From an uncultured Bacteroidota bacterium (GTDB lineage: Bacteria; Bacteroidota; Bacteroidia; AKYH767-A; JABDAW01): a stretch of 42,075 nucleotides of DNA. This document shows positions 1 through 42,075 of the stretch, in pieces (position 1 is the stretch's first letter; each line of letters starts with the position of its first letter). The position numbers and the translations under genes were made by a program. Under the pieces are notes generated by a model. It was given only the letters and a program-made list of their open reading frames with translations, was not told the DNA's origin and did not search any database. The stretch is taken from assembly GCA_903911135.1 (NCBI GenBank), contig CAIWCG010000129.1, forward strand, positions 1-42,075. The letters are read 5' to 3'.

Positions 1-232
1 CCTAACCGGTTTGGATTACGGCGTAACTGGAGTCGGTTACGCCGTGACTGGAGTCGGTTACGCCGTGACTGGAGTCAGTTACACCGTGACTGGAGTCAGT
101 TATGCCGTGACTGGAGTCAGTTACGCCGTGACTGGAGTCAGTTACGCCACGACTGGAGTCGGTTACGCAGAAATCCAAGCCGATTTCTCCGTAACTGGAG
201 TCGATTACGGCGTAACTGGAGGTGGTTTACAC
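1..232. repeat. Tandem array A, 21-bp unit with dyad
   Basis: Contiguous 21-bp units anchored at positions 5, 26, 47, 68, 89, 110, 131, 152, 173, 194 and 215; the unit at 173 is degenerate but keeps the register. The core of most units is the dyad TGACT-GG-AGTCA. Units written with GTAAC on the left keep symmetry through GTTAC on the right. The first visible unit carries the palindrome AACCGGTT in the same phase. The array is cut by the window edge. Long open frames here are an artefact of a period divisible by three. It lies 5' of structured element 1. Confidence 0.93.
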
Positions 233-284: not shown

Positions 285-477
285 GTTGCGGCGAAAAGGC
301 AAAGCCTTTTCGCCAAAACCACGTTACTTGCCAAAAGCTCCTTCGAAGCAACCTGCCATCAAAGCATAGCCCCGATAGTAGCGGCAGCCCGCTGCTTTGT
401 TTCGGGTTTGGGGATGCAGCGGCTACAGCGGATAGCGGGACGCACCATGATACGAGAAGAAAACATAGGCTTCAAAA
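285..477 (+). repeat. Structured interspersed element, copy 1 (long form)
   Basis: The core runs from 341 to 477. Nested complementary segments are visible: CCCG 371-374 with CGGG 436-439, GTAG 378-381 with CTAC 423-426, and CCGCTGC 389-395 with GCAGCGG 416-422, around a variable loop. This long form also has a 5' hairpin (arms GGCGAAAAGGC and GCCTTTTCGCC, 290-314) shared with copy 3, then a GTTACTT segment nearly complementary to AAGCAAC. It is co-oriented with mutS and ends 43 bp before its start. The GCCCCGATAG / CAGCGGATAGCGGGA framework recurs between genes in many Bacteroidota genomes and may be the Flavo-1 RNA family; that match is from memory. Confidence 0.85.
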
Positions 478-5033: not shown

Positions 5034-5130
5034 TTTGTTGGCCGCGAATTTAGATTAAAGATTGGACTATCGCCTCCACCCTCCTCCATTTCTCCATTTA
5101 TAATTCATAATTCCTAATTTATAATTCTCT

Positions 5131-5290
5131 TTTGGGGGCGCCCCCTTTTAGCTGCCAAGGGAAAAAAGGCAGCTAAAAGAGGTCGGGGTGTTGCGTGGGT
5201 CGCTATCGCTCCGTTTTTGCCGCCACCAACAAACGCAAGACAAAGGCGGCAAAGAACCGCCTTCGGCGCCACTACACTCCCTCGCCCAAG
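5131..5290. repeat. GC-rich hairpin-forming intergenic element
   Basis: This block is much richer in G+C than the DNA around it and packed with self-complementarity: the palindrome GGGGGC-GCCCCC (5134-5145), a stem CTTTTAGCTGCC / GGCAGCTAAAAG (5145-5156 with 5168-5179), a stem TTTGCCGCC / GGCGGCAAA (5216-5224 with 5245-5253) and a small hairpin around GCCTTCGGC. An AATT-rich degenerate run (about 5100-5130) adjoins it, as similar runs adjoin elements 5, 6 and 8. No credible gene is present. I suspect another widespread Bacteroidota intergenic structured element, but cannot name a family. Confidence 0.55.
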
Positions 5291-5360
5291 AAGACACAGC
5301 TTATTTCGATGGATACACCTTTTTTTTAACTATTCCACCATCCTAAATTTGGCGGAAGGA

Positions 5361-5400
5361 GGTGTTTTCAAGGTAAAAAAGGTGTTTTACAAGGTAAAAA
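5361..5400 (+). repeat. Short direct repeat, two copies of about 20 bp
   Basis: Two near-identical copies of GGTGTTTTCAAGGTAAAAA lie head to tail immediately before array B. Their period is 20 bp and their sequence does not match array B, so they are probably a separate small duplication. Confidence 0.6.
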
Positions 5401-5642
5401 GCAAATGGATTTTGATAAATACCATTTGATGCCGATGAAAAACCAAATGGATATTCAGAAAAACCAAATGGATATTCATGAAATCCAAATGGATATTAAC
5501 AAAATTCAAATGGATATTGTTAAAAACCATTTGTATTTTGATAAAAACCAAACGGATATTGACGAAAACCAAATGGATATTGATAAAAACCAAATGGTTT
5601 TTCATCGGCATCAAATGGTTTTTATCAAAAACCATTTACAAA
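5398..5642. repeat. Tandem array B, 21-bp unit with dyad
   Basis: Twelve dyads are centred exactly every 21 bp from 5404.5 to 5635.5. The core is CCA-AA-TGG, extended in symmetrical units to ATCCA-AA-TGGAT or AAACCA-AA-TGGTTT. At 5425.5, 5530.5 and 5635.5 the core is inverted to CCA-TT-TG while staying in register; these are five units apart. Spacer bases vary. The array lies at the 5' end of element 2. Confidence 0.95.
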
Positions 5643-5714: not shown

Positions 5715-5848
5715 TTCGAAGCTACCTGCCGTCAAAGCATAGCCCCGATAGTAGCGGCAGCCCGCTGCTTTGTATCGGTTTTGGGCTGGCAGCGGCTACA
5801 GCGGATAGCGGGACGCATCATGATACGAGAAGGAACCATAGGCTCCAA
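5715..5848 (+). repeat. Structured interspersed element, copy 2
   Basis: It contains the same core as copy 1: the ACCTGCCGTCAAAGCATAG lead-in, the GCCCCGATAG / GCGGATAGCGGGA frame, and CCGCTGC paired with GCAGCGG. The loop differs from copy 1. It is co-oriented with the oxidoreductase gene and ends 77 bp before its start, upstream of that gene's promoter. Array B is at its 5' side. The 5' hairpin of the long form is absent. Confidence 0.85.
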
Positions 5849-12821: not shown

Positions 12822-13014
12822 TTGGAGCCTATGGTTTCTTCTCGTATCATGGCCAGTCCCGCTATCCGCTGTAGCCGCTGCATCCCCATTGCCGACACCA
12901 AGCAGCGGGCTGCCGCTACTATCGGGGCTATGCTTTGACGGCAGGTTACTTCGAAAGAACTTCCATCAAGTAACCTGTCTGCGGCGAAAAGGCTTTGCCT
13001 TTTCGCCGCAGACA
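12822..13014 (-). repeat. Structured interspersed element, copy 3 (long form)
   Basis: Minus-strand copy with its core at 12822-12956, co-oriented with the YigZ gene and ending 96 bp before its start. It keeps both 5' hairpins: an 18-bp perfect stem at 12976-13014 (TGTCTGCGGCGAAAAGGC and its complement, 3-nt loop) and a 10-bp stem CAGGTTACTT / AAGTAACCTG (12942-12951 with 12968-12977). Copy 1 has the same first hairpin, which shows that the long form is the fuller version of the element. Confidence 0.85.
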
Positions 13015-14344: not shown

Positions 14345-14655
14345 TCAAATGCAATCGACAGGTTAAAAACCTTACAAATGCCCTCGTTGACTTCGAGAAT
14401 TGGGTTTGCAACGTTACAAATGACCTCGTTGAGTTCGAGAATTGGATTTGCAACGTTACAAATGACCTCGTTGAGTTCAAGAAATGGATTTGCAACGTTA
14501 CAAATGACCTCGTTGAGTTCGAGAAATGGATTTGCAACGTTACAAATCGACTTGAGATTCGCAACGAGGCGATATGTAACGTTGCAAACCCCCTCGTTGA
14601 ATCCAATGTGGTCGTATGCAAGATTTCGAGCCTCCTCGTTGAGCATCTTTAGGCT
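14345..14655. repeat. Tandem array C, 42-bp unit (2 x 21)
   Basis: The 42-bp unit contains the dyad TTTGC-AACGTT-ACAAA, centred at 14370.5 (as AACCTT), 14412.5, 14454.5, 14496.5, 14538.5 and 14580.5, and a second segment CCTCGTTGA at 14382, 14424, 14466, 14508, 14592 and 14634. The unit at about 14545-14590 is inverted as a whole (TGTAACGTTGCAAAC; CAACGAGG at 14562), yet its dyad stays in register. The array sits in the divergent gap between an unknown minus-strand gene and the kelch gene. No structured element adjoins it. Confidence 0.93.
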
Positions 14656-16421: not shown

Positions 16422-16556
16422 TTTCGAGGCAACCTGCCGTCAAAACCTAGCCCCGATAGTAGTGGCAGCCCGCTGCTTGGTGTCGGTATTGGGGATGCAG
16501 CGGCTACAGCGGATAGCGGGAAGCACCATGATACGAGAACCTACCATAGGCTTCAA
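16422..16556 (+). repeat. Structured interspersed element, copy 4
   Basis: Core copy with CCCCGATAG, CCGCTGC / GCAGCGG and GGATAGCGGGA. It is co-oriented with the methyltransferase gene and ends 86 bp before its start, upstream of that gene's promoter. Its 5' neighbour is the kelch terminator rather than a tandem array. Confidence 0.85.
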
Positions 16557-19519: not shown

Positions 19520-19652
19520 TTTGGAGCCTATGGCAAGTTCTCGTATCATGGCCAGTCCCGCTATCCGCTATAGCCGCTGCCAGCCCATTTCCGACACCAA
19601 GCAGCGGGCTGCCGCTACTATCGGGGCTAGTTTTGATGGCAGCAGCTTCGAA
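19520..19652 (-). repeat. Structured interspersed element, copy 5
   Basis: Minus-strand core copy, co-oriented with the esterase gene and 124 bp from its start, upstream of the -7 box. Its 5' end faces array D about 40 bp away. An AATT-rich run follows its 3' end. Confidence 0.85.
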
Positions 19653-19692: not shown

Positions 19693-19880
19693 TAATTATC
19701 CATGGCAAATTGGTAATCTGCCATGGCGGAATGGTAATCTGCCGTGGCAGAATGGTAATCTGCCGTGGCAGAATGGTAATCTGCCGTGGCAGAATGGTAA
19801 TCTGCCGTGGCAGAATGGTAATCTGCCGTGGCAGAATGGTAGCCTGCCGTGGCAGAATGGCAATCTGCCACGACCATTTA
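19693..19880. repeat. Tandem array D, 21-bp unit with dyad
   Basis: Nine dyads are centred exactly every 21 bp from 19702.5 to 19870.5. The main core is CTGCC-GT-GGCAG. The first two centres are the symmetrical CCATGG and the last is inverted to GCC-AC-GAC. The array lies between elements 5 and 6, which point away from it on both sides. Confidence 0.96.
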
Positions 19881-19920: not shown

Positions 19921-20053
19921 TTTCGAGCAACCTGCCGTCGAAAATAGCCCCGATAGTAGCGGCAGCCCGCTGCTTGGTGTCGGTAATGGGGATGCAGCGG
20001 CTACAGCGGATAGCGGGACGTAGATGGGACGAGAAGAAACCGTAGGCTCCAAA
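19921..20053 (+). repeat. Structured interspersed element, copy 6
   Basis: Plus-strand core copy whose 5' end is about 40 bp from array D. Unlike most copies it does not precede a gene start; it points at the 3' end of the convergent propeller gene. An AATT-rich run (GAATTACGAATTAGGAATTA) follows its 3' end. Confidence 0.85.
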
Positions 20054-23331: not shown

Positions 23332-23398
23332 CAATATCCATTTTATATCAGAATTACCACCATTGTAGTGAACTATAATGGTTAGATTGGATAATGGT

Positions 23399-23572
23399 TT
23401 TGAGTTTTGAAATCTCAAGTTTGAGTTTTGACTCCTTAATAATGATTTCTAAGGCCTCAAGTTTGGGTTTTGACACCTCAATAATGGTTTCTAAGGCCTC
23501 AACTTTGAGTTTTGACACCTCAATAATGATTTCTAAGGCCTCAACTTTGGGTTTTAACACCTTAAAATCCAA
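23399..23572. repeat. Tandem array E, 42-bp unit (2 x 21), alternating dyads
   Basis: Dyads are centred at 23412.5, 23433.5, 23454.5, 23475.5, 23496.5, 23517.5, 23538.5 and 23559.5, exactly 21 bp apart. From 23454.5 on, the core alternates AGG-CCT with TTGA-CACC-TCAA. The last unit reads TTAA-CACC-TTAA, with matching changes on both arms that keep the symmetry. It lies between two small minus-strand genes; no structured element adjoins it. Confidence 0.93.
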
Positions 23573-23641
23573 AACTAGAAAGTTTAAAACTTTATAATAT
23601 TTAGAATTATTTAATTTGGTGGAATGAAAAATCTCAAAAAA

Positions 23642-23830
23642 CTATCTAACTTGCTTAAGCAGATAACTGTAGGCCTTGCTAAGCACCACACTGTAAGATT
23701 TTCCTTCAAACAATTCGGAGGCACTGGTCTGCTTGTCGGTCAATATCAACTTGAATATTTCATCATCATCACGGTCAAGAGAAACTGTATATTTAATGAG
23801 GAGGGTCTTCAGCTTGGTGGTATTTCGCAT
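23642..23830 (-). CDS. Small hypothetical protein, 62 aa
   Basis: A 62-residue frame beginning MRNTTKLKTLLIKYTVSLD and ending YSYLLKQVR. Its main support is upstream: an exact -7 box TAACTTTG with TTG 16 bp further up on the minus strand, 26 bp before the ATG. No family is recognised. It lies between array E and the divergent histidine kinase gene. Confidence 0.5.
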   Translation of the reverse strand: MRNTTKLKTLLIKYTVSLDRDDDEIFKLILTDKQTSASELFEGKSYSVVLSKAYSYLLKQVR

Positions 23831-25935: not shown

Positions 25936-26138
25936 CTGTTCTGCCGATAGGTCGAGAGGTTCTGCCGATAGGCCGCAAGGTTCTGTCGATTGGTCGAGAA
26001 GTTCTGCCGATTGGTCGCAAGATTCTGCCGATTGGTCGAGAATTTCTGTCGATAGGTCGAGAAGTTCTGTCGATAGGTCGAGAAGTTTTGCCGATAGGTC
26101 GAGAAGTTCTGTCGATAGGTCGAGAAGTTCTGCCGACA
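25936..26138. repeat. Tandem array F, 21-bp unit
   Basis: Ten units with TTCTG (or TTTTG) anchored at 25939, 25960, 25981, 26002, 26023, 26044, 26065, 26086, 26107 and 26128, all exactly 21 bp apart. The symmetrical core is TCGA-TAGG-TCGA in the GTCGAT units, with AGAA-G-TTCT at the unit junction. One unit reads GCC-GATA-GGC, keeping symmetry with different bases. The array starts 4 bp after the response regulator stop and ends just before the orphan HTH gene's promoter. Confidence 0.93.
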
Positions 26139-34410: not shown

Positions 34411-34547
34411 TAATCTCAGAACTCTTCTGAGGTACCTCAGAACTCTTCTGAGGTACCTCGGAACTCTTCTGAGATACCTCGGAACTCTTCTGAGATACCT
34501 CGGGACACTTCTGAGGTACCTCGGAACGCTTCTGAGGTACCTCAGAA
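34411..34547. repeat. Tandem array G, 21-bp unit with perfect palindrome
   Basis: Six dyads are centred exactly every 21 bp from 34433.5 to 34538.5, plus a half unit at 34412.5. The core is the perfect palindrome CTGAGG-TA-CCTCAG or its near form GAGATACCTC. The array lies between the giant gene's terminator and the 5' end of element 7. Confidence 0.95.
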
Positions 34548-34606: not shown

Positions 34607-34743
34607 CATTTCGAGCAACCTGCCGTCAAAACATAGCCCCGATAGTAGCGGCAGCCCGCTGCTTGGTGTCGGAAATGGGAAGGCAGCGGCTACAGCGGAT
34701 AGCGGGACGTAGTTGGTACGAGAAGTGGACATAGGCTTCAAAT
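34607..34743 (+). repeat. Structured interspersed element, copy 7
   Basis: Plus-strand core copy with CCCCGATAG, CCGCTGC and GGATAGCGGGA, co-oriented with priA and ending 54 bp before its start. Array G is 60 bp from its 5' end. Its loop (GGTGTCGGAAATGGGAAG) differs from other copies. Confidence 0.85.
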
Positions 34744-37351: not shown

Positions 37352-37556
37352 ACAGCGAATAAATCAATTTATCTGGTATTGGGGAGTTCCCGAATACCGA
37401 ATAAATCAATTTATCTGGCATTGGGGAACTCCCGAATAGCTAAAAAATCAATTTATCTGGCATTCGGAAACTCCCGAATAGCTAAAAAATCAATTTATCT
37501 GGCATTCGGAAACTCCCGAATAGCGAAAAAACCAATTTATCTGGCATTCCGCCAAA
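37352..37556. repeat. Tandem array H, 42-bp unit (2 x 21), alternating dyads
   Basis: Nine dyads are centred every 21 bp from 37365.5 to 37533.5, with a degenerate tenth. Two types alternate: ATAAAT-CA-ATTTAT, and a longer arm pair (ATTCGG / CCGAAT around AAACTC, or GGTATT / AATACC with an inner GGG / CCC). The array fills the convergent gap between priA and apaG. No structured element adjoins it. Confidence 0.95.
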
Positions 37557-41954: not shown

Positions 41955-42075
41955 AAGGAGCCTATGGTATCATCTCGTATCAAGGCCAGTCCCGCTATCC
42001 GCTGTAGCCGCTGCCAGCCCATTTCCGACACCAAGCAGCGGGCTGCCGCTACTATCGGGGCTAGAAATGATGGCA
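41955..42075 (-). repeat. Structured interspersed element, copy 8 (cut by window)
   Basis: Minus-strand core copy, preceded on the left by an AATT-rich run. It points at the 3' end of the outer-membrane-like gene, as copy 6 points at a gene end. Its 5' end, where other copies carry arrays, is beyond the window edge. Confidence 0.82.

Follow-up and report, generated by a model that had tools for sequence, protein, structure and literature searches.

Palindromic repeats of the REP/BIME type are located between genes and sometimes occur in tandem, and the REPs share one palindrome common to each genome. A first search of the literature for intergenic repeats of 21 bp brought up no directly comparable case. 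Among the closest known systems is BrickBuilt of Porphyromonas gingivalis, a strictly intergenic minisatellite/MITE in which a 23-nt unit, with one sequence common to 19 copies, is flanked by repeated leader and tail segments (PMC4596501). At quasipalindromes, including those in rRNA genes and yeast coding genes, template switching produces arm homogenization, compensatory changes and inversion of the loop or spacer, bacteria included (PMC8794818, PMC8604942).

The window considered here, a 42,075-nucleotide stretch from the 3.8-Mb genome of an uncultured Bacteroidota bacterium, contains eight tandem arrays, whose sequence repeats every 21 or 42 bp (Table 1). Like BrickBuilt, these arrays are found in a member of the Bacteroidota, lie between genes and consist of direct, tandem, imperfect units of fixed length. 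Unlike BrickBuilt, they have a unit of 21 bp rather than 23 nt, are flanked by Flavo-1 or by a second dispersed element, and nearly every one of them has its own sequence; unlike REP/BIME repeats, they have no palindrome in common.

Table 1. Tandem arrays and dispersed elements in the window
Feature	Position	Strand	Description
Array A	16-221		21-bp period, dyad GACT-GG-AGTC, precedes Flavo-1 element
Array B	5360-5634		21-bp period; units ATCCA-AA-TGGAT and AACCA-AA-TGGTT
Array C	14368-14600		42-bp period, dyad ATTTGCAACGTTACAAAT
Array D	19703-19869		21-bp period, dyad GGCAGA-N7-TCTGCC
Array E	23398-23572		seven to eight 21-bp units, 42-bp superperiod
Array F	25938-26136		21-bp period, TCGA-TAGG-TCGA / GCC-GATA-GGC
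Array G	34415-34547		21-bp period, dyad ACCTC-GGAA-CTC-TTCT-GAGGT, precedes Flavo-1 element
Array H	37354-37549		42-bp period, dyad ATTCGGG-AACT-CCCGAAT
Flavo-1	364-446	+	array A on 5' side
Flavo-1	5737-5819	+	array B on 5' side
Flavo-1	12851-12933		RF01705 match
Flavo-1	16445-16527		RF01705 match
Flavo-1	19550-19632	-	array D on 5' side
Flavo-1	19942-20024	+	array D on 5' side
Flavo-1	34631-34713	+	array G on 5' side
Flavo-1	41984-42066		RF01705 match
Second dispersed element, GC-rich	5086-5290	-	5' side, as oriented here, faces array B

A genome-wide class of intergenic 21-bp arrays

In 1.60 Mb of the same genome, sampled as stretches, we identified 269 arrays with Tandem Repeats Finder after merging. 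The units of 228 arrays (1925 units) could be stacked without gaps, and these arrays represent 222 distinct consensus sequences. The period is 21 bp (or 42 or 63 bp), with 269 rows of 21, one of 20 and one of 19; over the first 1.13 Mb, lag identity was 0.70 at 21 and 0.83 at 42, compared to 0.25 elsewhere. As in the case of BrickBuilt, the location is intergenic: 252 of the 269 arrays lie outside genes as delimited by length-greedy ORF calling, though the ORFs cover 83.5% of the DNA. The gaps that hold arrays are of every type (between co-directional, divergent and convergent genes), and no preferred gene context was found across the 1.6 Mb, a mixture that led us to reject a promoter- or terminator-specific role. 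A CRISPR array is likewise ruled out, given that the units are contiguous at 21 bp and do not consist of constant repeats alternating with unique spacers.

Arrays with a 21-bp period are also present in two genomes of the same genus, G001 and G002. Between species, where conservation of individual arrays is assessed from a few loci, array H provides an example: it comes after a gene for an 828-aa protein, and behind the same-genus homologue of this gene (locus L209) there is likewise a 21-bp array, with a different sequence. In one array of G001 (L164, positions 1-131), the units change strand midway, from ACCGAGGTGTTTTACTTTTTT to ACCTTGGTAAAAAAGTAAATC. In G003, which belongs to another genus, an array (L211, positions 1-181) has a period of 40/20 bp instead of 21.

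Flavo-1 and a second dispersed element

The dispersed element that flanks many arrays is the Flavo-1 RNA (Rfam RF01705). Its eight matches in the window score 49.5-53.5 bits with the covariance model, above the family's gathering cut-off of 42; the copies studied here are distinguished by their multiplicity, by the 21-bp arrays on their 5' side and by heptamers on their 3' side. In 1.6 Mb, nhmmer yielded 158 matches at E<1e-6. Among copies with a visible flank, 67 of 89 have an array within 450 bp on the 5' side, as against 3 of 145 on the 3' side. Heptamers of the AATTANN type follow a number of copies, with at least two of the six counted forms present in 42 of 133. Flavo-1 looks more like a mobile or MITE-like element than like an RNA gene present in single copy. 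In F. psychrophilum, the position of Flavo-1 relative to transcripts gave no clue to its function (PMC9723704).

The second, GC-rich element is present in 36 copies in 1.6 Mb and is similarly one-sided, with an array next to 16 of 22 copies on one side and 0 of 32 on the other; short pieces of the copy at 5086-5290 also match G001 and G002. Some arrays lie between two elements that point outward, as does array D, each flank of which carries an outward-pointing Flavo-1. Among 171 well-visible arrays, 21 have elements on both sides and 124 lack both of the elements tested. We detected no copy of Flavo-1 in G001, G002 or G003; the search over 61 genomes was run with stricter filters, by which weak matches are lost. 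Given that G001 and G002 carry 21-bp arrays with no detectable Flavo-1, this element does not seem to be required for the arrays, and we reject Flavo-1 as their maker.

The paired change in array E

The preliminary description singled out array E for a change that affects both arms of the dyad in one unit and keeps the symmetry. All strings that it cited, in array E as well as in F and B, are indeed found where it placed them. The main core of array E, TTGA-CACC-TCAA, is present in the remaining units, the terminal unit reads TTAA-CACC-TTAA at 23554-23565 (centre 23559.5), and TTGA-CTCC-TTAA, with one arm changed, is located at 23428-23439 (centre 23433.5). A longer dyad, CTCAA-GT-TTGAG, spans the unit junctions. 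The paired change, from G-C to A-T, represents a single event, confined to the terminal unit, and the dyads of this array do not exceed chance: a column permutation null, which retains the substitutions and repeat structure of each array, matched the dyads of array E in 11% of the trials for arms of at least 4 and in 16% for arms of at least 5 (p 0.11-0.16). The same description saw comparable replacements in two other arrays. In array F, GCC-GATA-GGC (unit 25959) does occur beside TCGA-TAGG-TCGA, but dyad enrichment over column permutation is absent from this array, which has no dyad with arms of at least 5. In array B, ATCCA-AA-TGGAT and AAACCA-AA-TGGTTT are both present, but most units carry a mismatched pair at that position, so that each of the two variants amounts to one change and not to a pair of changes.

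By the same permutation, the dyads of arrays A (arms of at least 5, p=0.027), D (p=0.017), G (p=0.047) and H (p=0.023) each exceed chance at p<0.05, uncorrected over the eight arrays. The paired change in array E could be a coincidence, as its position within the null and its confinement to a single unit would indicate; given that the class to which array E belongs shows a compensatory effect between arrays (see below), we consider coincidence very improbable. On its own, the example of array E is weak, but the class-wide phenomenon is real.

Array E also raises the question of coding, in which case the 21-bp step would correspond to seven codons, the arrays would encode heptad-repeat peptides and the dyads would be incidental. 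On the minus strand, a frame is open through the array (23398-23655), immediately past the stop codon of a small ORF, and would encode coiled-coil-like heptads, (ALEIIIEVSKLKVE)n; across the class, open frames number 2.63 per array compared to 2.07 in permuted arrays. However, the frame of array E has no ATG, the arrays are intergenic, and the 1.6 Mb contain hardly any arrays whose period is another multiple of 3. Furthermore, codon-phase substitution bias is absent (0.468 versus 0.484 in the null), and the depletion of TA is the same as in the flanks and can account for the open frames. On these grounds, we reject the coding of heptads, which appears extremely improbable.

Dyad enrichment across the class

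Under column permutation of the whole class, perfect inverted repeats with arms of at least 6 number 755 against 345 expected. The excess is pronounced for arms of 6 with a 2-bp loop (98 versus 10.5) and for arms of at least 7 with no loop (48 versus 2.9). A local dyad score of at least 7 is reached by 14 of 170 consensuses of 21-bp arrays (~1.2 expected) and by 12 of 52 consensuses of 42-bp arrays (~2.3 expected). The length of the loop varies across the class from 0 to ~10. Where the two halves of a 42-bp array are unlike, another dyad is located exactly 21.0 bp from the first (match 0.44 versus 0.25). Given that symmetry of a 42-bp lattice about one axis entails symmetry about the axis 21 bp off, this second dyad may stem from palindromy of the lattice as a whole and not from two distinct sites.

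These features could be explained if the arrays were platforms for a symmetric (dimeric) DNA-binding protein, with a site every two helical turns and all sites facing the same side of the DNA, so that both the symmetry and the 21-bp step would be selected. The exact step in unrelated sequences, the dyads far above the null, the second dyad at 21.0 bp, the lower variability of matched arms and the absence of an RNA-strand bias (both described below) are all compatible with such a role. Against it, no motif common to 164 independent arrays was found, only weak 5-7-mers, so that a protein motif shared by all arrays is not supported. With 222 of 228 consensuses distinct, many proteins would be needed, or one that reads no sequence. 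The variation in loop length and the indifference to gene context also run counter to a binding platform, and the 21.0-bp spacing may follow from the palindromy of the 42-bp lattice. We regard a binding platform as possible but rather unlikely.

Paired changes between homologous arrays

Within arrays, the excess of paired over unpaired arm changes that the preliminary description had led one to expect is absent: on the best axis, we counted 28 double compensatory cells against 28.5 expected from the columns. Judged by the standard that this description had itself set, its reading fails at the level of single arrays. Among mismatched consensus pairs in dyad arrays, 59% of the single changes create a match, compared to 34-35% on control axes, and matched arm cells vary less than others (17.8% versus 21.3%). 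Lower variability would be expected of selection, but also of arms re-copied from each other.

Covariation between arm positions, which the same description had proposed to look for, does emerge when homologous arrays at separate loci are compared. Such arrays are connected by 125 similarity edges, compared to 4 in a shuffled null. Among 91 changed arm pairs between them, 19 (21%) are compensatory, whereas random axes give 6.1% (p=0.0005), and the compensatory pairs come from 8 of 23 families; a two-way count gives 26 of 119 versus 5.1%. A clear case is provided by L066, with CTTGCAGC-AAAC-GCTGCAAG, and L011, with CTTGTCGC-AAAC-GCGACAAG. These comparisons, like those between units, are unpolarized as to ancestral and derived state.

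Two groups of homologous arrays illustrate the variation. The 42-bp arrays of L074 (12240-12431), L086 (1-137) and L113 (11483-11658) have a constant GGCATAAACTG part, a TTATTA centre with variable, compensated arms and a common 3' flank, GGCATAAAAAATCGGG(C)TTTTAGCTTGTCAGGA. The arrays of L091 (29-173), L052 (3453-3614) and L078 (95-324) share a variable GC-rich palindrome, and the 3' flank GCCCCTTTTTCATGAATTCTTGGCT is common to L091 and L078.

Compensatory changes between homologous arrays, with loops apparently conserved (TTATTA, AAAC) and stems variable, would also be expected if the arrays were transcribed as chains of RNA hairpins whose stems are maintained, and the location of arrays 5' of the Flavo-1 RNA could be seen in the same light. 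However, no tolerance of G-U over A-C was found on a transcribed strand: G.T and A.C mismatches number 87 and 82, they do not segregate by array (p=0.96), and orientation by the flanking genes gives 47 versus 33 (p=0.15). Moreover, inverted loops are found, and gaps of all three types (convergent, divergent and co-directional) hold arrays. Maintenance of RNA stems therefore seems very unlikely.

A template-switch footprint

In array B, the core flips, for example between CCAAATGG and CCATTTG, and a TGATA/TATCA core is reverse-complemented between units. Across the class, we found 12 arrays (37 unit pairs) in which a core of 5-11 bp is flipped exactly to its reverse complement while the sequence on either side is conserved, compared to 1 array each for the reversed-only and complemented-only controls, which is the spacer inversion between inverted repeats that template switching produces. 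Given that inverting a loop leaves the symmetry unchanged, such inversions are not predicted by selection for symmetry. Multi-base changes that copy nearby sequence as its reverse complement, another mark of template switching, are common too: in 42 arrays, segments with at least three changes equal, in reverse complement, the context that the old unit itself provides. For segments of 10 bp, 30 arrays qualify (0 in the reversed and 1 in the complemented control), and for 12 bp, 22 arrays (0 in both controls), counts that were scored in already dyad-rich sequences, for which the controls are imperfect. The units thus share arm homogenization, loop or spacer inversion and compensatory multi-base changes with published template-switch quasipalindromes (PMC8794818, PMC8604942), and differ from those cases in that the changes recur within a minisatellite class of one genome.

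This footprint is the best discriminator between the two causes that had been offered for the paired changes. The flips and the re-copied segments favour the copying process, whereas selection on symmetry is compatible with the data and not required by them. We consider it probable that the symmetry comes mainly from template switching in a hairpin-prone, fast-turnover minisatellite, a class of intergenic arrays rewritten at the DNA level. On the evidence of the footprint, the units of these intergenic 21-bp arrays are rewritten repeatedly, class-wide: in the course of copying, a strand switches from one arm of a short inverted repeat to its partner, which then serves as template for the first (arm homogenization), or the loop is inverted. 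The altered unit might then spread over the array by slippage or unequal exchange. With such spread, both arms would usually already match within an array and paired changes would become visible only between related loci; the absence of covariation within arrays is what one would expect if units are homogenized. The arrays, passive or weakly functional, could form the cores of MITE-like intergenic elements, with Flavo-1 and the second dispersed element attached on the flank.

Copying errors alone do not account for the fixed 21-bp step, which corresponds to two helical turns; something other than copying error must hold the step at exactly 21. The step being unexplained by template switching, a selected or an enzymatic register is kept open. 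A dedicated DNA system might keep the arrays at two helical turns and one dyad per unit, with the base sequence free and Flavo-1 set alongside in a fixed orientation; the register would then be independent of sequence, as with a filament of the nucleoid or an enzyme that copies in steps of 21 bp. We find such a system distinctly unlikely.

Concluding remarks

Compensatory changes are usually read as proof of selection on structure. Here, they occur in sequence that is seemingly non-coding and not RNA-specific, alongside the inversion footprint of template switching, and the combination makes this genome a natural test bed for covariation that arises from copying alone. Furthermore, given the fixed step in hundreds of arrays of unrelated sequence and the one-sided placement of Flavo-1, the origin of the step and the nature of Flavo-1 become testable questions.
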